Translations under genes and position numbers: made by a program
The notes under the pieces: model-generated
Seen by the model: the letters and a program-made list of their open reading frames with translations, nothing else
Database searches by the model: none
Told to the model about the DNA's origin: nothing
Source: Cobetia sp. cqz5-12
GTDB lineage: Bacteria > Pseudomonadota > Gammaproteobacteria > Pseudomonadales > Halomonadaceae
Direction of reading: 5' to 3'
Length of the DNA: 64,000 nt
NCBI RefSeq assembly: GCF_016495405.1
Contig: NZ_CP044522.1
Span: 2,695,876 to 2,759,875, forward strand
In this document: piece after piece, positions 32,921-62,325 of the stretch
Position numbering within the stretch: position 1 is the stretch's first letter
Layout: each line of letters starts with the position of its first letter

Positions 32921-33805
32921 TCACTTGAGGCCGTGTTCCTTCAGGAAGTCCTCGGCGACCTGCTCGACAGATTTTCGATCTACATCTACTTGTGAATTCA
33001 AACCAGCCATAACGTTATCGTTGAGCTTTGCTGAGAGCTCATTCATCTGAGCTTCGAGCTCAGGATTGGCTTCAAGGATTTCCTCACGGACTACCGGTGT
33101 TAAAGCATAATCCGGGAAAAAATCCTTATCATCTTCTAGAACGGTTAAATCAAGCGCTGGAATACGGCCATTGGTAGCTGTAGTCATCGCCACATCAACT
33201 TCTCCGCTATCGAGGGATGGCAATGTTAAACCTTGATCCATGCGCTTGATATTCTTCCGCCCGAATTCAAATCCATATTTTTTCTGCATGGGCCGTAAGC
33301 CATCATCACGAGCATAAAATGTAGCATTGGACGCCAAAACTAATTTTTCGCCTGAATTTATTGCTCGCGCCAAATCAGAAATCGTGTTTATTCCTAGCTC
33401 TTTAGCATGTTTTTTACGCATTGCTAAAGCATAGGTGTTGTTAGCTTCTGAAGGGGAAAGCCAGATCAGCCCCTTCTCTCCATCCAGTTGTTTGACCCGC
33501 TGATAAGCTTTCTCTGGAGATAGCTTCTCTGTCACTTTATTATAGCTAATCAACGACGTGCCAGTATATTCCCAATATAAGTCCACCTGACCGTTTTCTT
33601 GGGCATTCCTCAGCACAGCCGTTCCCATACCAGAACGCTCCTGAACATCGTAACCTTTATCTTCAAGATACTGAGTTGTCATGCTGGATAAAATCAGCTG
33701 CTCTGTAAAATTCTTGCCACCCACTGATATTTCTTTAGCATATGCTTGGCTTGACAATATCGACAAAGCCACCGAAAAGCATACGAACAGTTTTGGAAAT
33801 TTCAT
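32921..33805 (-). CDS. Quaternary-amine ABC transporter substrate-binding protein, AT-rich second copy
   Basis: A 294-residue OpuAC/OpuBC-type receptor with signal peptide (MKFPKLFVCFSVALSILSSQAYA) and family motifs VGGKNFTEQLILSSM, QVDLYWEYTGTSL and NNTYALAMRKKHA. It is a diverged paralog of the next receptor gene. Its base composition is foreign: two 60-base samples I counted are about 40% and 47% GC, and codons end in A/T far more than in neighbours, suggesting horizontal acquisition. Yet the last coding bases (32937-32967) are identical over 31 bp to the end of the GC-rich paralog, hinting at recombination there. It ends the transporter operon; the ligand may differ from that of copy 1. 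Confidence 0.9.
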   Translation of the reverse strand: MKFPKLFVCFSVALSILSSQAYAKEISVGGKNFTEQLILSSMTTQYLEDKGYDVQERSGMGTAVLRNAQENGQVDLYWEYTGTSLISYNKVTEKLSPEKAYQRVKQLDGEKGLIWLSPSEANNTYALAMRKKHAKELGINTISDLARAINSGEKLVLASNATFYARDDGLRPMQKKYGFEFGRKNIKRMDQGLTLPSLDSGEVDVAMTTATNGRIPALDLTVLEDDKDFFPDYALTPVVREEILEANPELEAQMNELSAKLNDNVMAGLNSQVDVDRKSVEQVAEDFLKEHGLK

Positions 33806-33883
33806 CGCTGAATCCTTTCATAAACGACATCAAAGGCATTAGAGGGCCGACGCTCACGTCGACCCTATTGTTATAAGAACCAG

Positions 33884-34765
33884 TTATTTGAGGCCATGCT
33901 CCTTCAGGAAGTCCTCGGCGACCTGCTCGATGGTCTTTTTCTCGACATCGACCTGTGCGTTCAGACTCGCCATGGTGTCGTCATTGAGCTCAGCGGACAG
34001 CGCATTCATCTGCGACTCGAGTTCCGGGTTGGCCTTGAGCGACTCCTCACGCACCACCGGCGTCAGGGCGTAGGCCGGGAAGTAGCCCTTGTCGTCCTCG
34101 AGCACCGTGAAGTCGAACGCCGGGATGCGGCCATCGGTAGCGAACACCAGGCCGACATCGACCTGACCATCACGCAGTGCCTGGTAGACCAGACCGGAAT
34201 CCATGCGCTTGACGTCGGCGCGCCCGACACGGAAGTCATAGGCTTTCTGCAGCGGACGCCAGCCATCATCGCGCGCGTAGAATTCGGCGTTCAGTGCGAA
34301 GGACAGCCCCTTGTCGTCGTTGACCGCCTGCGCGAGGTCCGACAATGAGGCGATACCGCGCTCCTGGGCATCCGACTCACGCATCGCCAGTGCGTAGGTA
34401 TTGTTGGCCGCAGACGGCTCCAGCCACACCAGGCCCTTCTCGGCGTCCAGCTCCTTGACGCGGGCATAGGTGTCTTCCGGACTCAGGCGCTCACTGACAT
34501 CGTTGTAGTTGATCAGTGAGGTGCCGGTGTATTCCCAATAGAGATCGATCTGGCCGTTTTCCTGCGCCTGACGGAGTACGGCAGAGCCCATGCCGGAGCG
34601 TTCTTCCACGTCATAGCCCAGGCTTTCCAGATACTGCCCTGTCATGCTCGCCAGAATCTGTTGTTCAGTGAAGTTCTTGCCCCCCACCACGATCTCTTCG
34701 GCGTGCGCCGTCGAGAGGGAAGCGGCCAGTGCCGCGCCGGTCAGCAGAGTCGTCAAGGTCTTCAT
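33884..34765 (-). CDS. Quaternary-amine ABC transporter substrate-binding protein, copy 1
   Basis: Periplasmic receptor (293 residues) of the OpuC/OsmF class: signal peptide ending STAHAEE, VGGKNFTEQQILASMTGQYLE, ENGQIDLYWEYTGTSLINYNDV, FYARDDGWRPLQKAYDFRVG and a Lys-rich C-terminus EDFLKEHGLK. Typical ligands are glycine betaine, choline, carnitine or proline betaine. It has normal host-like GC content and lies 102 bases after the permease gene, so it is the original receptor of this transporter. Confidence 0.92.
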   Translation of the reverse strand: MKTLTTLLTGAALAASLSTAHAEEIVVGGKNFTEQQILASMTGQYLESLGYDVEERSGMGSAVLRQAQENGQIDLYWEYTGTSLINYNDVSERLSPEDTYARVKELDAEKGLVWLEPSAANNTYALAMRESDAQERGIASLSDLAQAVNDDKGLSFALNAEFYARDDGWRPLQKAYDFRVGRADVKRMDSGLVYQALRDGQVDVGLVFATDGRIPAFDFTVLEDDKGYFPAYALTPVVREESLKANPELESQMNALSAELNDDTMASLNAQVDVEKKTIEQVAEDFLKEHGLK

Positions 34766-34867
34766 GGTGTTCTCCTATCCTGTGAAAAGTCGGTCCAGCT
34801 GGTTGTTATTGTTCAGGTATTGCAGTCTGTCACCACGCGCCGAGCGGGCCGGCTCGTGGGTCTTCGT

Positions 34868-35599
34868 TCATGCCCGCGCCGGGTTGACGCCTCGCGGCAC
34901 CACGAGGAAGGCCACCAAGGCCACCAGCACATCCACCCCGATCGCCAGCAGCGCCGTGGGAATGGCACCGGACAGCATCATGATGGGGTCATAGAGATCG
35001 ATCCCGGTAAAGATCAGCTCCCCCAGTCCACCGGCGCCGATCAGGAAGGCCAACGGTACCGTGCCGACATTGATGGCCAGAGCAGTACGAATCCCGGCGA
35101 ACATGACATACAGCGCATTGGGCAACTCGACCCGCACCAGGCGCTGAAGTGGCGACATGCCGATCCCGGCCGCCGCTTCCTTCAAGGCAGGTGAGACTCC
35201 CTTGAGCCCCGTGTAGGTATTGCGGGTGATGGGCAGCAGGGTCGCGACGAACAGACCGAAGACCGCCGGCACGGTGCCGATGCCCAGAAAGCTCATCGAC
35301 AGTGCCAGCACCGCCAGCGTCGGGATGGTGGTGCCCACGTTGAGCACTTGCATGGCGGATTCGGCGTAGCGCGTCATGCTGGGTCGCGACAGGATGATGC
35401 CCAACGGGACCGCGACCAGGATCGCCAGCCCGCCTGAGAGTGCCGTCAACCAGAGGTGTTGTACCGTCAGGAACTGGATGTCGGGTATATAGAAGAGAAA
35501 CTCTTCGATCACGCCACTCGATTGGCTCCAGACCCCGGCCATGAAGATCGCGGCCACGGCCACCAGCCGCAGCAAGCCCGTGAATTTGAGTGTCGGCAT
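34868..35599 (-). CDS. Quaternary-amine ABC transporter permease (OpuBD/OpuBB type)
   Basis: Inner-membrane subunit of 243 residues with five or six hydrophobic segments. The ProW-family loop LLPITRNTYTGLKGVSPALKEAAAGIGMSPLQRLVRVELPNAL is complete near residue 125, and LIGAGGLGELIFTGI follows. The ATG at 35599 was selected because it lies just after the ATPase stop (4 bases); longer frames would overlap the ATPase. Together with the second permease at 36831 it forms the heterodimeric channel. Confidence 0.92.
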   Translation of the reverse strand: MPTLKFTGLLRLVAVAAIFMAGVWSQSSGVIEEFLFYIPDIQFLTVQHLWLTALSGGLAILVAVPLGIILSRPSMTRYAESAMQVLNVGTTIPTLAVLALSMSFLGIGTVPAVFGLFVATLLPITRNTYTGLKGVSPALKEAAAGIGMSPLQRLVRVELPNALYVMFAGIRTALAINVGTVPLAFLIGAGGLGELIFTGIDLYDPIMMLSGAIPTALLAIGVDVLVALVAFLVVPRGVNPARA

Positions 35600-35603
35600 G
35601 GGC

Positions 35604-36785
35604 TTACTCCTTGTGCAGCGTGGTCGCGGACATCTCAGCCTGCTGGCCCGCAGCCCCGCCACCTGAATGCGCCCGATAGCGAGACCCCAGATGGTGGGTG
35701 ATGGCGCGCTGCGTGATCTGCCCGACGATTCGTCCCTCATCATCGACGCACGGCATCCAGGTCATGTCGTTGGCAAACATCAGTGAGGCGACCTTGCGCA
35801 GGTCATCATCCAGGGTGACCACGACGGGCACGCTCTGGAAGTGATCACGGCAATGGCCCCTGGAGGTGCGTGCGATGGCAGCACTGATGATCCCGACCGG
35901 CTGACGCTTGTCGTTCACCATCACGATGCTGTTCTGGTAGCCATAGGATTCAATGCGCTCGAGCGCCGTGGTCAGGGTGTCATCGGGCGTGACCATGCCG
36001 ATACCTTCGCTGGCCAGATCACGCACCTTGACCAAGTTGAGGCGCTTCAGGGCACGGTCCTCGCCCAGGAAGGATTCGACGAACTCGTTCTTCGGCGCGG
36101 CCAGCAATTCATCGGGCGGTGAATACTGCACCAGCTTGCCGCCGCGGAAGATGGCGATGCGATCGCCCATCTTGATCGCCTCATCGATATCGTGACTGAC
36201 GAACATGATGGTCTTCTTGAGGTCCTGCTGCATCTTGAGGAACTCATCCTGGATCACCGCACGGTTGATGGGGTCAATCGCGCCGAAGGGCTCATCCATC
36301 AGCATCACGGGCGGATCTGCCGCCAGAGCACGCGCAACGCCGATACGCTGTTGCTGGCCACCGGACAGTTCACTCGGATAACGCTTGAGAAACGCATCAG
36401 GCTCCAGCGCGATCATGCGCATCATCTCGCGCGCACGCTCGCGATAGCGGGTCTTGTCCCAACCCAGCAGCTTGGGCACCACCGTGATGTTCTCCTCGAT
36501 GGTCATGTTCGGGAACAGGCCGATCTGCTGGATCACGTAGCCGATATTGCGGCGCAAGTCCTGGGTATTGAGGTTGGTAGTATCTTCACCGTTGATCAGT
36601 ACTCGCCCGGAAGTCGGGCGAATGATGCGATTGATCATCTTGAGGCTGGTGGTCTTGCCGCAGCCGGAGGGGCCGAGCAGGATGCAGATCTCACCGCTCG
36701 GGACCTTCATGCTGATATGGTCAGCCGCCGTCACGGCGCCTTTCGGGGTATCGAAGACTTTTGTCAGGTTGTCGAGTTCGATCAT
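35604..36785 (-). CDS. Quaternary-amine ABC transporter ATP-binding protein with CBS domains
   Basis: A 393-residue OpuBA/ProV-type ATPase: Walker [19 protein letters not shown] near residue 36, signature [16 protein letters not shown], Walker [14 protein letters not shown] and switch His VSHDIDEAI. Two CBS motifs follow ([26 protein letters not shown] and [26 protein letters not shown]); in OpuA these tandem CBS domains sense ionic strength or cyclic-di-AMP. The last 25 residues are poorly conserved. Linked to both permeases, with gaps of 45 and 4 bases. Confidence 0.94.
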
Positions 36786-36830
36786 GAAGCGTTCCTTGTC
36801 GTGTTGGCAGAATCGCGCGCGAATGACGCG

Positions 36831-37499
36831 TCAGGCGGCGGCCGCTGTCGTGCGGTCCATGCCCTTGGGCGTCAGGCGCTTCTGCAGCGCCAACAATGCA
36901 TAGTCGACGAGGATGGCCAGCACGCTGACCGCCACCGCCCCGACAATCAGCTGACGTGGATCTGACTGGGAAATGCCACGGCTGATGAAGGTGCCAAGCC
37001 CCCCGGCACCGATATAGGCCGCAATCGCCATCACCCCGATATTCAGCACCACGGCGGTGCGCACACCGGCCATGATGATCGGCACGGCCAACGGAATCTC
37101 CACCATCCACAGACGCTGATTCTGGCTCATGCCCACCCCTCTGGCCGCTTCACGCAGCGCCGGGTCGACATTGTTGATCGCGGTGTAGGTGTTGCGAATG
37201 ATCGGCAGCTGCGAATACAGCAACACGGCAATCACGGCCGGCACATAGCCGATGCCCTGCCCGATCAACGACAGGATCGGAATCATGATGCCGAACAACG
37301 CGATGGAAGGGATCGTCACGATGATCGAGGCGATATACAGAACGGTCTTGGCGGCTCGCTCGTTCTTGGTGATCGCGATACCGATGGGCACGCCCGTCAG
37401 GGTGGCGATTCCCACCGCCACCCCGACCAGCGAGATGTGCTCAAGCGTGCGTGTGGTCAAGAGCTCCAGATTGTCCAGAGCATACTGGATCAGTTCCAA
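36831..37499 (-). CDS. Quaternary-amine ABC transporter permease, first gene of operon
   Basis: A ProW-family permease of 222 residues. I place the start at a TTG (37499) with an AAGGAG site 7 bases upstream; longer in-frame starts lack a ribosome-binding site. Typical loop: LPIIRNTYTAINNVDPALREAARGVGMSQNQRLWMVEIPLAVPII near residue 125, then YIGAGGLGTFISRGI. It heads the operon permease, ATPase, permease, receptor 1, receptor 2, possibly continuing into the PrpD and nitrilase-like genes. Confidence 0.9.
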   Translation of the reverse strand: MELIQYALDNLELLTTRTLEHISLVGVAVGIATLTGVPIGIAITKNERAAKTVLYIASIIVTIPSIALFGIMIPILSLIGQGIGYVPAVIAVLLYSQLPIIRNTYTAINNVDPALREAARGVGMSQNQRLWMVEIPLAVPIIMAGVRTAVVLNIGVMAIAAYIGAGGLGTFISRGISQSDPRQLIVGAVAVSVLAILVDYALLALQKRLTPKGMDRTTAAAA

Positions 37500-38071
37500 G
37501 CGAGATCTCCTTGCTTTTATTGTGTTCTGCACAGACTCCACACCGCGACGCACGCCTGATGATCAAAGCTCGAAGCATCAGAGCCCGAAAGATCAGGGCA
37601 ACAAGGTCAGAGTCGTCAGGCACGACGGAAGCCGGTCGATGTGGGAATCTGCTTAGCTTAGCAAAGCGAGATAGCAGTTATTTATCGATTTGGATGAGCA
37701 TGCAAAATGCCAGTTATCAAGAACAGTGATCCTCCTTGCCCCATGCGACCCCGAGGGCACGACTGGCCCACCGACGGCAGGTGTCACTGATTCGCTTTGC
37801 AGGTTTAGGGCCAATTTGTCACCGCTATCCGCCTTGTACGCGACGATGGTAACAAAAAAGCCAAAACAATTTATAAATCATCCATTTAGCATATATAGGC
37901 AGGCCCTACCCCCAGCGAAATGACGGTCATGCAGCGGGCGCGAGCCTTCCACCCCCTCAACTCCATAAGAAAAATGCATACCCTCCAATAACACTCACCC
38001 CCTACTTAGGTCCCATGCCTCGCTCCCATAATGGCCACGATATACAACCGTGCTAATGGAGAGATGCCTGC
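37500..38071. other. Divergent control region between the betaine-type transporter and tmpAB
   Basis: No gene is supported in these 572 bases. The interval is AT-richer around 37845-37900. It should contain promoters for the minus-strand transporter and the plus-strand tmpAB pair, but I cannot name a convincing -35/-10 pair or operator. A GGAGAG ribosome-binding site lies just before 38072. Confidence 0.5.
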
Positions 38072-39241
38072 ATGTCCCTGACCAATGCCCTGTCCGACGC
38101 GCTGCCGCTGACCCTGAGCGAGTCGCCGCTGTCACTGAACCTGATCACCGCTGAAGGCCACGAGCCGGTCAGCCCGCTGTGGCTGCGCGAGCGCACCCAG
38201 GACCCGGAGCAGCTCGATGAGGTCACCACCCAGCGTCTGTTCGATTCGCATGCCATCGACGTCAATCTCGAGTTGACCGCGGCGCGCCCGGTCGATGAGA
38301 CGCACGTGGAATTCACTTTCAGTGACGGGCATTGCGAGGTGTATGACCTCACCCTGCTGGCGCATGAGCTGCAGGGCATCACGCCGTTCCCCAAGGCCGA
38401 GAGCTGGGATGCGGGCATCGATCAGCAGGCGCAGCGCGTCGACTGGGAGAAGATGGGCAACAATGAGGACTTCCAGAAGGCACTGGAGGCCTATCTGCGC
38501 TTTGGCTACATCATCGTGCAGAACGTGCCGACCGATCCGGAGCGCATTCTGGAAGTGGCCGGTCACTTCGGCTACGTGAAGGACACCAACTTCGGCAGCT
38601 ACTTCGAGGTGTATTCGCGCCCGACCGGCAACGATCTCGCCTATCGCAGCGTGGCACTTGGACCGCACACCGATAATCCGTATCGTGATCCGGTGCCGGG
38701 CATCCAGATGCTGCATTGCCTGGTCAACGAGACCACTGGCGGCCTGTCCACGCTGGTCGACAGCCTGAATGCGCTCAAGCAGCTCAAGGCCGAGATGCCG
38801 GAAGGCTATGAACTGCTGCGTACCACCCCGGTGGGCTTCCGCTTCCTGGATGCCGGTACCGAGCTGACCACCCGTCGCTGCGTGATCCGTGAGAGCGCCG
38901 ATGGTGAGCCGATCGGCGTCAACTACAGCCCGCGTCTTGATCATCTGCCGCACATGTCGCTGGAGAACACGCGCCGCTACCATCAGGCCCGCCAGCGTCT
39001 GGGGCAGCTGTTCCAGGACCCTGCCAACGAGATTCGCTTCCAGCTCGAGTCCGGTGAGTTGATGATGTTCGACAACACCCGCGTGCTGCATGGCCGTACG
39101 GCGTTCGACACCAATGAGGGGCATCGTCACCTGCAGGGCTGCTACATGGACAGCGACGGCCCGCGTGAGCGCTTCGCCACGACCCTGATGCGTCAGCGTC
39201 AGCAGCAGGCACAACAAGAAAACCGTGAGGAAATGGCGTAA
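38072..39241 (+). CDS. tmpA: TmpA-like Fe(II)/2OG dioxygenase (2-trimethylaminoethylphosphonate hydroxylase)
   Basis: A 389-residue oxygenase of the gamma-butyrobetaine hydroxylase/TauD superfamily, with an N-terminal DUF971-like domain (to about residue 110) and a catalytic domain. The facial triad is His199-Thr-Asp201 (LGPHTDNPYRDP) and His340 (VLHGRTAF), with Arg342 as candidate 2-oxoglutarate contact. Proteins like this were first annotated as betaine hydroxylases, but next to an HD-domain oxygenase they match TmpA, which hydroxylates trimethylaminoethylphosphonate at C1. The tmpB start shares the last base of the tmpA stop. A true gamma-butyrobetaine hydroxylase (carnitine synthesis) is the alternative; the HD partner argues against it. 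Confidence 0.85.
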   Translation: MSLTNALSDALPLTLSESPLSLNLITAEGHEPVSPLWLRERTQDPEQLDEVTTQRLFDSHAIDVNLELTAARPVDETHVEFTFSDGHCEVYDLTLLAHELQGITPFPKAESWDAGIDQQAQRVDWEKMGNNEDFQKALEAYLRFGYIIVQNVPTDPERILEVAGHFGYVKDTNFGSYFEVYSRPTGNDLAYRSVALGPHTDNPYRDPVPGIQMLHCLVNETTGGLSTLVDSLNALKQLKAEMPEGYELLRTTPVGFRFLDAGTELTTRRCVIRESADGEPIGVNYSPRLDHLPHMSLENTRRYHQARQRLGQLFQDPANEIRFQLESGELMMFDNTRVLHGRTAFDTNEGHRHLQGCYMDSDGPRERFATTLMRQRQQQAQQENREEMA

Positions 39242-39840
39242 TGGATCAGGTTTCATTCACCCAGATGAAGGACGGCACCGCAGAAGACTATGCGTTGCTC
39301 GAGCGTCTTGAAGACCAGTTCAATGAAGGGCTGGTGGAGCGTCTCAAGCTTGCCCTGCGCAAGCTCGATGATGGTCTGAGCGGCTACAAGGTCAGCCGTC
39401 TGGAGCACTCCCTGCAGTCAGCGGCACGTGCCGAAGCCGACGGTGGCGATGATGATCTCGTCGTCGCGACCCTCCTGCATGACCTGGGTGACGAGCTGGC
39501 GCCCTACAATCACTCGCAGCTGGCCGCCGCCATCATTCGCCCGTATGTGCGTGCCGAGGTCACCTGGATCATCCACCACCATGGACTGTTCCAGAAGTTC
39601 TACTACGGTCACTTCTACGGCGAGGACCGCAACGAGCGCGAGATCTACAAGGATCACCCCTGGTATCAGAAGTGTGTGGATTTCTGCGAGCGTTATGATC
39701 AGGCGGCCTTCGATCCGGACTATCCGACCCCGCCGCTGGAGCACTTCGAGCCGGCTCTGCGTCGCGTCTTCGCACGCAAGCCCTTCGATCCGGACGTGAT
39801 CGGCGAAGAGCCCGCCGGCGGTTTCGACAGCCGCGTCTGA
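39241..39840 (+). CDS. tmpB: TmpB/PhnZ-like HD-domain phosphonate oxygenase
   Basis: A 199-residue HD-domain protein of the mixed-valent diiron oxygenase group. Metal-ligand candidates are His56 (EHSLQSA), His80-Asp81 (TLLHDLGDE), His91 or nearby (YNHS), His112-114 (WIIHHHG) and Asp153 (ERYDQA), arranged as in PhnZ. With TmpA it would oxidatively cleave the C-P bond of hydroxylated trimethylaminoethylphosphonate, releasing phosphate and glycine betaine. It is coupled to tmpA by a one-base overlap and followed by a terminator. The related PhnZ uses hydroxylated 2-aminoethylphosphonate, but its partner PhnY is a phytanoyl-type oxygenase, unlike the neighbour here. Confidence 0.85.
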   Translation: MDQVSFTQMKDGTAEDYALLERLEDQFNEGLVERLKLALRKLDDGLSGYKVSRLEHSLQSAARAEADGGDDDLVVATLLHDLGDELAPYNHSQLAAAIIRPYVRAEVTWIIHHHGLFQKFYYGHFYGEDRNEREIYKDHPWYQKCVDFCERYDQAAFDPDYPTPPLEHFEPALRRVFARKPFDPDVIGEEPAGGFDSRV

Positions 39841-40101: not shown

Positions 40102-40428
40102 ATGGAACACCTCTTCATCTATGGCCCGCTGGGGCCAGGCGGACTCAACGAACATGTCATCGCCAACATCGATGGCGAATGGCGCCCGGCCTATCTGCGC
40201 GGCCGACTCGAGAACAGCGATCAGGGTACCGAGCACAACTTCCCCGGGCTGGTGGTCGACAACACGGGGCAGGTGATACGCGGCCACGTCTTTTCCTCAC
40301 CGCAGCTGCCCGAGCATTGGGACGCTCTCGATGACTTCGAGGGCCCCATCTATCAGCGTCGCGTCACCACCGTCATTCTCGACGACAATCGTGAGCTCGA
40401 GGTCTATGTCTATGCACTGGCGATGTGA
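40102..40428 (+). CDS. Gamma-glutamylcyclotransferase (AIG2)-like protein
   Basis: A 108-residue protein of the gamma-glutamylcyclotransferase-like fold: N-terminal LFIYGPLGPGG (YGxLxPGG motif), PAYLRGRLEN, FPGLVVDN and the catalytic-type Glu in WDALDDFEGPIYQRR. Known members act on gamma-glutamyl amines or related amides. The substrate is unknown here. The protein is short but complete compared with bacterial YtfP-type homologues. It stands alone between tmpAB and the GFA gene. Confidence 0.85.
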   Translation: MEHLFIYGPLGPGGLNEHVIANIDGEWRPAYLRGRLENSDQGTEHNFPGLVVDNTGQVIRGHVFSSPQLPEHWDALDDFEGPIYQRRVTTVILDDNRELEVYVYALAM

Positions 40429-41278: not shown

Positions 41279-42247
41279 GTGCCGGCCCGAAAGACACGCT
41301 CCCCTGCGCCAGACGATACCGCCAGTAGCCTGGATGACCTGCCCTCCCTGCGCGGGCTGGTCGCCTTTGACGTGACGGTTCGCCTGGGCTCGATGACGGC
41401 TGCGGCCAATGAGCTGGATACCACCCAGCCCACCATCTCCCAGCGCATCCGCGCGCTGGAGGAGCACCTGGGCCATCCGCTGTTCGATCGTCAGGGCGGC
41501 AGGCTGATACTCAACCACTACGGCGAGACCTTCCATGCCGAACTGGCCGGCGGACTTGGCCAGGTCTGCAGCGCCGTGGACGAAGCACGTCGCAAGGTGC
41601 ACAAGCCGACACCGCGCATCACCATCGCCGCGGGTGCCGGCTTCGCCCACGTCTGGCTGCGCCCGCGGCTGGAGCGATTGGAGCAGGCCTTTCCGGAGTG
41701 TCACTTCACGCTGCTGCCGATCGATCGCGATGAAGACCCGCAGATGCAGCAGGCCGATATCGCGATCCGCTTCGGCCCGCCACTGACGGGCGATCATCGC
41801 GATACGCTGGTGGTCGCGGAGCGCGCCTTTCCGGTCTGCTCGCCGGATTACGCGCGGCGTCATGAGCTGGAGAAGGGGCTGGATGCCGAGGCACTGTCGC
41901 GCATCACCCTGCTGCATCTGGACATGCGCGATAGCCGCTGGCTGGACTGGGCCACCTGGTGTCGTCATGCCGGACTGCCGGCACCGCGTCTGGACAAGGC
42001 CTTCCCCTTCAACAACTTCCCGCTGACGCTGAATGCTGCCGTCAACCATCAAGGGGTCGCGCTGGGCTGGAGTCACGTCATCCAGGACCTGCTCGACAAC
42101 GGCTCGCTGATCGCCCTGACGCCGCATATCTCGCGTGACCGTCATGGCTATCGCATGAGTGTCCGCCATCCCAACAGCGCCGTGATCCAACCCATCACCC
42201 GCTGGCTGACACGCGAATTTTCCGGCCTGACATTGCCTGACGCCTGA
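41279..42247 (+). CDS. LysR-family regulator (GcvA-like)
   Basis: A 322-residue LysR protein. The start is placed at a GTG (41279) with GAGGA 6 bases upstream; the frame extends another 32 codons without a matching site. The helix-turn-helix is FDVTVRLGSMTAAANELDTTQPTISQRIRALEEHLGHPLF, and the effector domain begins near residue 95 (RITIAAGAGFAHVWLRPRL) with the ADIAIRFGPP segment typical of the GcvA-like subgroup. It is convergent with the next LysR gene. The target is unknown. Confidence 0.88.
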   Translation: MPARKTRSPAPDDTASSLDDLPSLRGLVAFDVTVRLGSMTAAANELDTTQPTISQRIRALEEHLGHPLFDRQGGRLILNHYGETFHAELAGGLGQVCSAVDEARRKVHKPTPRITIAAGAGFAHVWLRPRLERLEQAFPECHFTLLPIDRDEDPQMQQADIAIRFGPPLTGDHRDTLVVAERAFPVCSPDYARRHELEKGLDAEALSRITLLHLDMRDSRWLDWATWCRHAGLPAPRLDKAFPFNNFPLTLNAAVNHQGVALGWSHVIQDLLDNGSLIALTPHISRDRHGYRMSVRHPNSAVIQPITRWLTREFSGLTLPDA

Positions 42248-58555: not shown

Positions 58556-59962
58556 TCAGCTGGCCGCAAGATCACTCTCGGCATTGGCCACCAGCGCAAA
58601 CTCTTCCTCAGCGGTCTTCGCCACCAGCTGATGGCGGCTGAAGATGGCGTAGTAGGCGATGCCCACCACGAACAGCACCACGGTGTAGTTGAAGGCACGC
58701 GGATCGAAGGCATAGACCCCGGTCAGCGCGATCAGCGAGAGCACCAGCGCGATGGAGGAGGTCACGATGCCACCCGGCGTGCGATAGGGACGCGCCATCT
58801 GCGGCTGGCGCAGGCGTAACAGGATGTGGCTGGCGGCCATCAGTGCGTAGGAGACGGTCGCCCCCACCACCGCCATGCCCAGGATCAGATCGCCTTCACC
58901 GGTCAGCGAGACCAGGAAGCCGAAGACGCCCGGCACCACCAGCGCCCAGGACGGCGCCTTGCGCTTGCTGGTCAGCGACAGCGCCTTGGGCAGGTAGCCG
59001 GCTCGTGACAGCGCGAACACCAGACGGCTGTAGCCGTAGATGATCGAGAAGAACGAGGCCACCAGCCCGGCCAATGCCAGCACGTTGACCAGCGTCGCCA
59101 GTCCTTCGCTGCCAGTCGCGTTCAGCGCATCCACCAGCGGCACGGCACTGCTGCCGATCGCCTCGGCGCCCGCGGCGCCGGCCAACAGGAAGACGACGAG
59201 CACGGCGGTGAACATCAGAAACAGCATGGCGCCGATGATGCCACGCGGAACATCACGAGCCGGATTGCGCGATTCCTCTGCCGCCAGCGGCACCCCTTCC
59301 ACGGCCAGGAACAGCCACATGCCGAAGGGCAGCGCGGCCCAGATGCCATACCACCCATTGGGCATGAAATCGCTGGCGCCCCAGGCATCCGTCGGCGCGA
59401 TGTCGAACAGGCGGCTGCTGTCGAAATCACCGATCAGCGCGACCGCGGTGGCGATGATAGCGAACACCGCCAGGCCGCTGATCACCATCATCACCTTGAG
59501 CGCCTCGCCGACCCCCGCCAGGTGGATGCCGATGAACACCAGGTAGAAGATGGCGTAGATGATCGGGCCATTGATGCCCAGAAGCGACTCAACCGCGCTG
59601 CCGATGAAGATGACGATGGCCGCAGGTGCCAGCGCATATTCGATCAATACCGCAAGGCCGGTGAGATAGCCTCCTGCAGGCCCCATGGCCTGGCGCGCGA
59701 AGCTGTATCCGCCGCCGGCGGCGGGAATGGCCGCTGACATTTCCGCCAGCGACAGCACCAGTGCCAGATACATGATGCCCATCAGCAACGCTGCGATCGC
59801 GAAGCCGCCCCAGCCTGCCTCCGCGATACCGAAATTCCAGCCGGCGAAATCACCGGAGATCACATAGGAGACCCCGAGTCCCGCCAGCAGAATCCAGCCC
59901 GCCGTGCCCTTCTTCAACTGGCGTCTGGCCAGATAGTCCTGCTCTTTCGTGTCGCGAGTCAT
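58556..59962 (-). CDS. eat: Ethanolamine permease (APC family)
   Basis: A 468-residue, 12-helix amino-acid/polyamine/organocation transporter. N-terminal features are LKKGTAGWILLAGLGVSYVISGDFAGWNFGIAEAGWGGFAIAALLMG and AAIPAAGGGYSFARQAMGPAGGYLTGLAVLIEYALAPAAI, characteristic of the ethanolamine subgroup; VEGVPLAAEESRNPARDVPRGI is also conserved. It is 72 bases after eutC and completes the unit eutB-eutC-permease, so it likely supplies ethanolamine to the ammonia-lyase. Confidence 0.93.
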   Translation of the reverse strand: MTRDTKEQDYLARRQLKKGTAGWILLAGLGVSYVISGDFAGWNFGIAEAGWGGFAIAALLMGIMYLALVLSLAEMSAAIPAAGGGYSFARQAMGPAGGYLTGLAVLIEYALAPAAIVIFIGSAVESLLGINGPIIYAIFYLVFIGIHLAGVGEALKVMMVISGLAVFAIIATAVALIGDFDSSRLFDIAPTDAWGASDFMPNGWYGIWAALPFGMWLFLAVEGVPLAAEESRNPARDVPRGIIGAMLFLMFTAVLVVFLLAGAAGAEAIGSSAVPLVDALNATGSEGLATLVNVLALAGLVASFFSIIYGYSRLVFALSRAGYLPKALSLTSKRKAPSWALVVPGVFGFLVSLTGEGDLILGMAVVGATVSYALMAASHILLRLRQPQMARPYRTPGGIVTSSIALVLSLIALTGVYAFDPRAFNYTVVLFVVGIAYYAIFSRHQLVAKTAEEEFALVANAESDLAAS

Positions 59963-60034: not shown

Positions 60035-60922
60035 TCAGGACAGCAGGAAGTTCTGGATACCGCCCCCGCTCTCCAGCGAGTTGTCGCCACTTCTGTCCTT
60101 GAGCCCCACCCCGGTGAGGCCGAGCTTGCGGGCCTCGCGCAGCAGGTAATGCAGACGCTGGGCAGCCATCGCGAAGTCGAGCCCTGCCGGGCGCACGTTG
60201 GAGATGCAGTTGCGACTGGCATCACTGAGGCCGACGCGCGGCTGCCAGGTGAGATATAGCCCGAGGCTGTCCGGTGAGCTGAGACCGGGGCGCTCGCCGA
60301 CCATCACCAGCACCGCCCGCGCCTTGAGTAGCTCACCGACCTCATCGCCGATCGCGACCCGTCCCTGCTCCACCACGCTGATCGGTGTCAGCGTCCAGGC
60401 ATCCGGACCATCCTCGGCAAGCGTTTCCAGCAATGCCGCGATGAAGGGCGCGGCGTTGTTCTGCACCGCCAGAGACGACAGCCCATCGACGATCACGATG
60501 GCCAGATCCGCAGGCTCCGGTGCGAGGCTCGACAATTGCTCACACGAGGCCTCATCGAGCCGTCGCCCGTAGTCGGGGCGTTGCAGATAGGTGGTGCGAT
60601 CCACGGCGCGACTGTGCAGATGCTGGATGTCCGGGGCGTTCTCGAGGGCGGGCAGCTGCTGGAGATCCTCGATCAGTCGGGGAATCTCCAGTGGCAGATG
60701 GACGGCGTCCTGCGCGCGGGCGTGCGCCAGCTGAAATTCCAGCGAGCGGTTGGTCGGCAGGCTGATGCCGGCGCGGCCCAGGCCGATGCGCGCATCCGTG
60801 AACTGCCCCAGCAGCTGCCAGGCATTGGGCGTGACGATGGCGGGCGAATCGCTGACAGCCTTTCCCTGCTGGCCCTCGCGAGCCGCGGATGGCGCATCAC
60901 TGGGGGAGGAGTCGTGGCTCAT
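60035..60922 (-). CDS. eutC: Ethanolamine ammonia-lyase small subunit EutC
   Basis: Light subunit (295 residues) of the adenosylcobalamin-dependent lyase that converts ethanolamine to acetaldehyde and ammonia. Landmarks are TDARIGLGRAGISLPTNRSLEFQLAHARAQDAVH near residue 37, RPDYGRRLDEAS, LAIVIVDGLSSLAVQNNAAPFI, VVMVGERPGLSSPDSLGLYLTWQPRVG and SDASRNCISNVRPAGL near the C-terminus. The start overlaps the eutB stop (ATGA). No microcompartment genes are present in this window. Confidence 0.96.
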   Translation of the reverse strand: MSHDSSPSDAPSAAREGQQGKAVSDSPAIVTPNAWQLLGQFTDARIGLGRAGISLPTNRSLEFQLAHARAQDAVHLPLEIPRLIEDLQQLPALENAPDIQHLHSRAVDRTTYLQRPDYGRRLDEASCEQLSSLAPEPADLAIVIVDGLSSLAVQNNAAPFIAALLETLAEDGPDAWTLTPISVVEQGRVAIGDEVGELLKARAVLVMVGERPGLSSPDSLGLYLTWQPRVGLSDASRNCISNVRPAGLDFAMAAQRLHYLLREARKLGLTGVGLKDRSGDNSLESGGGIQNFLLS

Positions 60923-62325
60923 GCCTCACCTCCGGATACCTGACGCAGGGAGTCGGCAAAGCAGGACGGCATGTCAGCGGGCAGCTTCTGCTGGGCGACA
61001 TCGGTGAAGATCTGCATCTCCTCGAGCCAGGCGGCGAATTCCGGCGCCGGGCCCAGGCCCAGCACCCGTCGTGCATAGAGGGCATCGTGGAAGGAGGTGG
61101 TCTGATAGTTGAGCATGATGTCATCGGAGCCGGGGATGCCCATGATGAAGTTGCAGCCCGCCACCCCGAGCAGCGTCAGCAGGGTATCCATGTCGTTCTG
61201 GTCGGCATCGGCATGATTGGTGTAGCAGATGTCACAGCCCATCGGCAGCCCCAGCAGCTTGCCGCAGAAATGGTCCTCAAGCCCCGCGCGGATGATCTCC
61301 TTGCCATTGAACAGATACTCGGGACCGATGAAGCCGACCACGGTGTTCACCAGCAACGGCGAGTACTTGCGGGCCACCGCATAGGCGCGCGCCTCACAGG
61401 TCTGCTGGTCCAGTCCGTGATGGGCATCGGCGGACAGCGCACTGCCCTGGCCGGTCTCGAAATACATCACGTTGTCGCCCACCGTGCCGCGCTTGAGTGA
61501 CAGCGCCGCCTGCTGCGCCTCCGCCAGCACGGAAAGCTCGACACCGAAGCTCTCGTTGGTGGCCTGGGTGCCGCCGATGGACTGGAAGACGAGATCCACC
61601 GGGGCGCCCTGCTCGATGCATTCAATGGTGTTGGTGACGTGGGTGAGCACGCAGGACTGGGTGGGAATCGAATACTTCTGGATCACCTCGTCCATCAGAC
61701 GCATCAGCTTGATGCTCTGGGCCACGTTGTCGGTGGCCGGATTGATGCCGATCACCGCGTCGCCGTTGCCGTAGAGCAGCCCATCGAGAATGCTGGCGGC
61801 GATGCCCGTGACATCATCAGTGGGATGGTTGGGCTGCAGGCGAGTCGAGAGATGGCCGCTCTTGCCGATGGTATTGCGAAAGGCCGTGACCACCTCGCAC
61901 TTCCTGGCGACCAGAATCAGATCCTGATTGCGCATCAGCTTGCTGACCGCGGCGGCCATTTCCGGGGTGATGCCGGCACGTACCTGCGCCAGCACCGCCG
62001 GCGTCGCGAGGTCACTCAGCAGCCAGTTGCGGAAGTCGCCGACGGTGAGATGCGCGATCGGCAGGAACGCCACCGGATCATGCTCATCGATGATCAAGCG
62101 GGTGATGTCGTCCTGTTCGTAGGGAATCAGCACGTCTTCGAGGAAGGTCTTGAGAGGCAACTCCGCCAGACACAGCTGAGCGACGACTCGCTCCTCAGCG
62201 GTTTCCGCGATCACGCCAGCAAGACGATCTCCGGAGCGGGCGGGCGTCGCCTTGGCCATCAGCTCCGCCAGACTGGCGAAACGATGGACCTGACTGCCCA
62301 GGGTATAACGGTACTCGCGGCTCAT
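60919..62325 (-). CDS. eutB: Ethanolamine ammonia-lyase large subunit EutB
   Basis: Catalytic large subunit of 468 residues. Features include YRYTLGSQVHRFASLAELMAKATPARSGDRLAG at the N-terminus, ITRLIIDEHDPVAF, TRLQPNHPTDDVTGIAASILDGLLYGNGDAVIGINPATDN near residue 181, HVTNTIECIEQGAPVDLVFQSIGGTQATNESFGV and MGCDICYTNHADADQNDMD. Use of ethanolamine as carbon and nitrogen source is inferred; cobalamin supply genes are not in the window. Confidence 0.97.
   Translation of the reverse strand: MSREYRYTLGSQVHRFASLAELMAKATPARSGDRLAGVIAETAEERVVAQLCLAELPLKTFLEDVLIPYEQDDITRLIIDEHDPVAFLPIAHLTVGDFRNWLLSDLATPAVLAQVRAGITPEMAAAVSKLMRNQDLILVARKCEVVTAFRNTIGKSGHLSTRLQPNHPTDDVTGIAASILDGLLYGNGDAVIGINPATDNVAQSIKLMRLMDEVIQKYSIPTQSCVLTHVTNTIECIEQGAPVDLVFQSIGGTQATNESFGVELSVLAEAQQAALSLKRGTVGDNVMYFETGQGSALSADAHHGLDQQTCEARAYAVARKYSPLLVNTVVGFIGPEYLFNGKEIIRAGLEDHFCGKLLGLPMGCDICYTNHADADQNDMDTLLTLLGVAGCNFIMGIPGSDDIMLNYQTTSFHDALYARRVLGLGPAPEFAAWLEEMQIFTDVAQQKLPADMPSCFADSLRQVSGGEA

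Follow-up and report, generated by a model that had tools for sequence, protein, structure and literature searches.

The 64,000-nucleotide stretch of the Cobetia sp. cqz5-12 genome analysed here (positions 2,695,876-2,759,875 of 4.21 Mb; the window) carries, on the forward strand, a gene for an Fe(II)/2-oxoglutarate (2OG) oxygenase of the GBBH/TmpA family (38072-39241, 389 amino acids), followed by a gene for an HD-domain protein (39241-39840, 199 amino acids). The two open reading frames (ORFs) overlap by one base, as the initial annotation had stated, i.e. base 39241 is common to the stop of the first and the start of the second. Cobetia amphilecti N-80 is the nearest named relative, its oxygenase being 98% identical. 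The initial annotation regarded the pair as TmpA/TmpB, which degrade 2-trimethylaminoethylphosphonate (TMAEP) to glycine betaine and phosphate. Our main finding is that, in alignments, the positions on the phosphonate side of the substrate are changed in both enzymes together. Sequence and structural models show intact Fe and 2OG sites in the oxygenase, a diiron ligand set and an HD-oxygenase fold in its partner, tight pairing of the genes and a recurrent LysR-type partner. We consider it fairly probable that the pair is a two-step oxidative module of TmpA/TmpB-like build that acts on a non-phosphonate quaternary ammonium compound, with hydroxylation followed by diiron-dependent cleavage, probably yielding glycine betaine.

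Active sites and families of the two enzymes

The oxygenase combines a TauD domain with a GBBH-like N-terminal domain. Among the NCBIfam models TmpA is nearest (NF049936, 348.4 bits, cut-off 400), ahead of GBBH (TIGR02409, 245.6 bits, cut-off 414.75) and trimethyllysine dioxygenase (TIGR02410, 181.9 bits, cut-off 268.3); the expected proximity to TmpA rather than GBBH thus holds, but all models stay below their cut-offs. The matches in the PDB (TmpA, 5e-58; GBBH, 4e-31) and the predicted structure, which is closest to TmpA with BBOX second, give the same order. The residues H199, D201 and H340, named as Fe ligands in the initial annotation (HTD199-201, H340), indeed line up with the corresponding ligands in TmpA and BBOX; all three, and also R352, the arginine that holds 2OG, are unchanged in every one of the 82 relatives (relatives compared were at least 300 residues long and differed over their last 300). 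The aromatic cage consists of F174, F178 and Y358, kept in all 82 sequences, and Y191, kept in 80.

According to passages of PMC9296572, N187, N287 and R288 are the phosphonate ligands of TmpA (published numbering, i.e. the chain number minus 6). At the corresponding positions the window's oxygenase has D188, P287 and R288; the aspartate is found in 82/82 relatives and the proline in 81/82, and S286 replaces N286 of TmpA in all 82. At the N187 position, Asn occurs in all 13 oxygenases whose HD partner carries a YxxE loop, and Asp in both oxygenases of a second clade that are paired with a YxxE-less HD protein, where the cage is altered as well (W, A, M).

In the oxygenase tree, which includes 28 of the 82 members of the window's D-type clade, both D-type clades unite (97/98) as a third group apart from TmpA and GBBH. 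Solved TmpA lies in a supported branch (97/97) together with 11 of the 13 oxygenases with YxxE partners, the other two being poorly placed, and BBOX sits with GBBH-like proteins. Several long branches were flagged, BBOX among them.

The partner contains one HD domain (Pfam) with the predicted metal ligands H56, H80, D81, H91, H114 and D153. The pattern H..HD..H..H is present in 104/104 HD relatives and the final Asp in 103/104 (distinct sequences of 150-320 residues, from 132 matches). With the TmpB model NF049941 the protein reaches 37.8 bits over 43 residues, far from the cut-off of 300, and its TmpB and PhnZ matches cover only about 45 residues. Passages of a 2020 review (PMC8177086) describe the YxxE loop as present in PhnZ and TmpB but not in MIOX, which is likewise an HD oxygenase and cleaves a C-C bond. 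The loop is found in 0/104 relatives of the window's protein versus 12/12 TmpB-type proteins (12 of the 15 available formed the comparison set). At the places of PhnZ Y24 and E27 the window's protein has L46 and Y49; in the relatives these are mostly Leu (89/104) and Tyr (99/104, otherwise Phe), respectively. K108, H62, S126 and R158 of PhnZ, which we take to be its phosphonate contacts, are kept with Y24 and E27 in all 12 TmpB-type proteins. In the 104 relatives, by contrast, the K108 place is always Gln and the R158 place is Glu in 87 and Arg in 2, whereas H62 and S126 fall in alignment gaps, D84 standing at the H62 place by its spacing after HDLG.

The structure of the HD protein is predicted with confidence (predicted local distance difference test, pLDDT, 94). 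Structural alignment with VIA-align, applied to the chains ranked by Foldseek, gives Z scores of 17.4 for PhnZ, 16.0 for TmpB and 11.2 for MIOX, the next row being at 8.0, and the ten Foldseek hits with E <0.001 are PhnZ and TmpB chains only (10/10). Although both the window's protein and MIOX lack YxxE, MIOX is found neither among the phmmer matches up to E 1 nor in the 50 Foldseek rows shown, and the Z score of 11 may reflect a mere common helical arrangement. In a tree obtained with a quick method and rooted at the midpoint, a single split on a long branch (Shimodaira-Hasegawa-like approximate likelihood ratio test, SH-aLRT, 100) separates PhnZ, TmpB and the other YxxE proteins from the YxxE-less class. 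As the ligand set is intact and the fold PhnZ/TmpB-like, yet YxxE is absent and the clade separate, the protein is HD-oxygenase-like rather than TmpB-like. Of the two tree placements that the initial annotation had named as refuting, the phylogenies show one, the HD protein lying outside the PhnZ/TmpB clade; the oxygenase is not among the GBBHs, the other such placement, but it belongs to a third group instead of grouping with TmpA.

The Cobetia genome encodes five oxygenases of the TauD/GBBH family, three of them, the window's included, with an HD neighbour. One, at 1.65 Mb, belongs to a TmpA/TmpB-type pair (L036:11766-13435). The HD protein of this pair can be aligned with solved TmpB from end to end (3e-50) and keeps YxxE, even though the pair, too, is under the NCBIfam cut-offs (368.7 of 400 for TmpA, 237.9 of 300 for TmpB). 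It is flanked by LysR-like genes, and ABC-transporter-like genes are not far (names by resemblance). The third is a second D-type pair at 0.24 Mb (L037:10238-12009) with an HD protein of the same class as in the window, followed by a choline-type receptor gene (258 of 379 bits). With 418.5 bits its oxygenase exceeds the NCBIfam TmpA cut-off of 400, but its cage is altered and its HD partner lacks YxxE. Calling it TmpA is likely a mis-naming; as it passes the cut-off without a TmpB-like partner, TmpA/TmpB names given from the oxygenase alone are unsafe.

The window's pair resembles TmpA/TmpB (PDB 6npb, 6npa) in combining a GBBH-fold 2OG oxygenase with an HD oxygenase and in its aromatic cage and its Fe, 2OG and diiron ligands. 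The view that it degrades TMAEP can draw on TmpA as the best characterised match of the oxygenase, on the PhnZ/TmpB-like fold of the HD protein and on the retained R288. Against it stand D188 for N187, P287 for N287, Gln for Lys at PhnZ position 108 and the changes at H62, S126 and R158, the missing YxxE loop, the separate clades of solved TmpA and TmpB, and the presence of the 1.65 Mb pair in the same genome. A weak further argument is that, with up to three mismatches allowed, 3 Pho-box-like sites occur in the window versus 6.6 expected, none upstream of the pair. At the 1.65 Mb locus there are 4 versus 2.0 expected, again none just upstream of the pair, so that this test says little. Altogether we regard TMAEP degradation by the window's pair as very improbable. 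Hence the general part of the initial proposal stands, namely a 2OG hydroxylase coupled to a PhnZ-like HD oxygenase with a quaternary amine as the probable substrate, but the phosphonate does not. PhnY/PhnZ, which acts on 2-aminoethylphosphonate, shares the HD fold and ligand set, PhnZ being the best fold match. It differs in the family of the partner oxygenase, PhnY presumably being of the PhyH type, and has the YxxE loop and the phosphonate-side positions that the Cobetia HD protein lacks.

Gene pairing and genomic neighbourhood

The pairing of the two genes is well beyond chance. Among the loci of the best 80 of the 205 oxygenase relatives, to which all locus counts out of 80 refer, the HD gene lies directly downstream of the oxygenase gene in 73, the gap often being a few bases at most. 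In 5 others it is located at another place of the fetched piece, and in one of the last 2 the contig stops 94 bases past the oxygenase gene. This pairing, together with a fold and a ligand set closest to HD oxygenases, argues against the HD protein being a hydrolase or having another role and merely sharing the locus with the oxygenase. In favour of that alternative, 37 of 59 genomes with the HD class (those, of 69, with a strong HD match) have no GBBH-type oxygenase, and the class stands in varied contexts. We consider it rather unlikely, though the least so of the alternatives to a two-step module. The HD gene was located in 44 of 54 fetched pieces, gene calling having missed the remaining ones.

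Several arrangements illustrate these contexts. In genomes of the same phylum, a PhyH-type oxygenase gene directly precedes a YxxE-less HD gene in L044:8670-10060, L168, L169 and L204 (assigned by Pfam for L044, with which the other three cluster), which is perhaps a parallel hydroxylase/HD module. In L055:8716-10108 (Pfam) and L201:6400-7799 the HD gene adjoins a class II aldolase gene instead of a GBBH-type oxygenase gene. In L176:3058-9120 an operon contains BKACE-, HD-, carnitine dehydrogenase-, acyl-CoA dehydrogenase- and CoA ligase-like genes (by resemblance), and L173 and L205 resemble it, i.e. the HD class occurs without a D-type oxygenase in a carnitine-type operon, in one genus of the phylum.

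The third recurrent member of the unit is a LysR regulator (41279-42247, forward strand; alternative ORF start 41183). Relatives of it occur in 50/80 loci versus 0/39 control loci (each control spans about 20 kb with a FadB-like gene inside, from 38 pair genomes and the window's genome). Its nearest model is the choline-sulfate regulator TIGR03418 (210 bits, below the cut-off of 325). A Pfam scan of the neighbours covered 128 of 167 candidate proteins from 38 of 42 chosen loci, short ORFs and some shadow-like ORFs having been removed by hand. LysR was found 25 times, followed by BCCT (8), i.e. betaine/carnitine/choline carriers, MFS (6), TauD (5) and class II aldolase (4). No phosphonate family is among the top 25 of the 143 Pfam families in these 128 neighbours.

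In 7/80 loci (L077, L078, L109, L113, L100, L127 and L105, from Pseudomonas, Marinomonas, Comamonadaceae and Steroidobacteraceae) the pair lies in a carnitine-type cluster, the labels resting mostly on sequence resemblance. In L113 carnitine dehydrogenase (315.7 of 414 bits) and BKACE (236.8 of 382) are below the equivalog cut-offs, and the aldolase passes its subfamily cut-off. L105:7686-14111 (Steroidobacteraceae) holds a D-type oxygenase gene with its HD gene, which is not adjacent to it, as well as a TmpA/TmpB-type pair; a gene resembling carnitine dehydrogenase is close by. In L052 (same family) a second D-type pair lies near carnitine dehydrogenase-like and GBBH-type genes. When genomes are matched, one of the tested quaternary-amine genes is present in 14/39 loci versus 2/39 controls (Fisher p 0.0007); one 'GBBH' match in this test, in L074, is really a TmpA-type gene.

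The carnitine context raises the question of whether the oxygenase is a trimethyllysine-type hydroxylase, with D188 holding the alpha-amino group of the substrate, and whether the HD protein cleaves the 3-hydroxy amino acid so that gamma-butyrobetaine enters the carnitine pathway. The oxygenase shares fold and cage with GBBH and trimethyllysine hydroxylase (TMLH), and D188 aligns with D231 of human TMLH (mapped via the HTD motif, with an offset of 40 to BBOX), a residue reported in passages of PMC7764450 as important for the substrate. Moreover, a GBBH-type gene lies beside the pair in Marinomonas and Pseudomonas, and a carnitine dehydrogenase is encoded at 2.50 Mb of the Cobetia genome (437 bits, cut-off 414). 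However, the oxygenase is below both model cut-offs (for TMLH, 182 bits versus 268), lies outside the BBOX group and has an HD partner. The cut-off for carnitine dehydrogenase is reached in 26 of 47 pair genomes, with 4 further ones at 315-385 bits, but 15 of the remaining 17 also lack a second GBBH-type oxygenase, i.e. gamma-butyrobetaine would be a dead end there. This makes the trimethyllysine route improbable, and for the same reason delta-valerobetaine or trimethyllysine feeding gamma-butyrobetaine was set aside as the principal interpretation. In these genomes the cell must be able to use the product without a carnitine route, which holds for glycine betaine. The aspartate in TMLH also indicates that Asp at the D188 place can serve a substrate that is not anion-tipped.

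A probable two-step oxidative module

In GBBH and TmpA alike, the hydroxyl is placed on the carbon that is two bonds away from the ammonium nitrogen. For the favoured two-step module we propose that the aromatic cage of the oxygenase grips the trimethylammonium head and that the enzyme hydroxylates the chain; if the position of hydroxylation in GBBH and TmpA holds here, N(+)-CH2-CH(OH)-X would be formed. X is a phosphonate in TmpA, whereas in the Cobetia pair the phosphonate-side positions are changed. The HD diiron oxygenase would then cut the bond to X, next to the hydroxyl just introduced. This is most likely a C-C bond, and its cleavage would release the carboxylate N(+)-CH2-COO(-), probably glycine betaine.

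Several observations weigh against this interpretation. R288 is retained in 80/82 relatives, so some anion may still be bound. The second D-type clade comprises only two paired rows, and two of the 19 oxygenases without an HD neighbour likewise have Asp at the N187 position. Of these two, L140 falls with the second D-type clade, whereas L161 is placed beside BBOX, long branches being involved. The 37 of 59 genomes in which the HD class has no GBBH-type oxygenase suggest that the HD substrate may be broader. Most loci contain none of the quaternary-amine genes tested, which occur in 22/80; the queries for the association test were drawn from the tested loci, which biases the association upward, and the rate of carnitine dehydrogenase is known for pair genomes only. 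We infer the quaternary-amine substrate from the cage and the neighbours, and the activity of both enzymes, the order of steps and the product are likewise presumed.

Passages of the review cited above (PMC8177086) name three HD-domain oxygenases. Tentatively, and with more doubt than for the two-step module itself, we suggest that the YxxE-less HD proteins may form a fourth class, which, together with D-type 2OG hydroxylases and elsewhere perhaps PhyH-type ones, would cleave C-C bonds of hydroxylated quaternary amines and thus provide an unrecognised O2-dependent route to glycine betaine. Candidate reactions would be the conversion of carnitine via a 2,3-diol to glycine betaine and glyoxylate, or the shortening of beta-alanine betaine, the carboxylate analogue of TMAEP, by one carbon. 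Among the open-licence papers matched by our searches, none has a title or abstract opening about an HD oxygenase or a pair of this kind. If true, a further widespread HD-oxygenase class with a matched partner would extend oxidative C-C cleavage chemistry and bear on how bacteria of marine, saline and freshwater habitats cycle betaine and carnitine.

The divergent importer and other neighbours

The reverse strand upstream of the pair (32921-37553) encodes a full OpuB-type ABC importer, as initially annotated, comprising two permeases, a CBS-type ATPase and two OpuAC receptors. The additional suggestion that importer and pair form one unit for uptake and degradation, with one receptor tuned to the substrate, is not borne out. 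The pair is present in five of six Cobetia genomes, but the importer adjoins it in this genome only; in a sister genome (G448) it is about 8 kb further off, in G447 the receptor lies at a distance of 1.2 Mb, and no close copy is present in G444 and G446, whose receptors, located elsewhere, are only 39% identical. Other Cobetia strains have different genes upstream of the pair. A related importer occurs in 1/80 loci, a Halomonas metagenome-assembled genome (L058), where some 2.6 kb separate the HD gene from its start. The second receptor (32921-33805) is 69% identical to the first, has 43.8% G+C versus 62.4% for the window and is closely matched in this genome only, of the six from Cobetia, and thus looks recently acquired. 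Although the adjacency in the window and the two more distant arrangements would fit a joint unit, such a unit is, of all the alternatives considered, the one to which we give least credence; the importer is a strain-specific neighbour outside the conserved unit.

Between the pair and the LysR gene lie, on the forward strand, a gamma-glutamyl cyclotransferase-like gene (40102-40428), found in four of the five Cobetia genomes with the pair and probably not essential, and a GFA-domain gene (PF04828, 40568-41044), likewise found in four of these five. A formaldehyde link through the GFA gene was considered and dropped because relatives occur in only 4/80 loci. Further downstream, genes resembling ethanolamine ammonia-lyase subunits (60035-62325) follow a permease-like gene (58556-59962), both assigned by eye.

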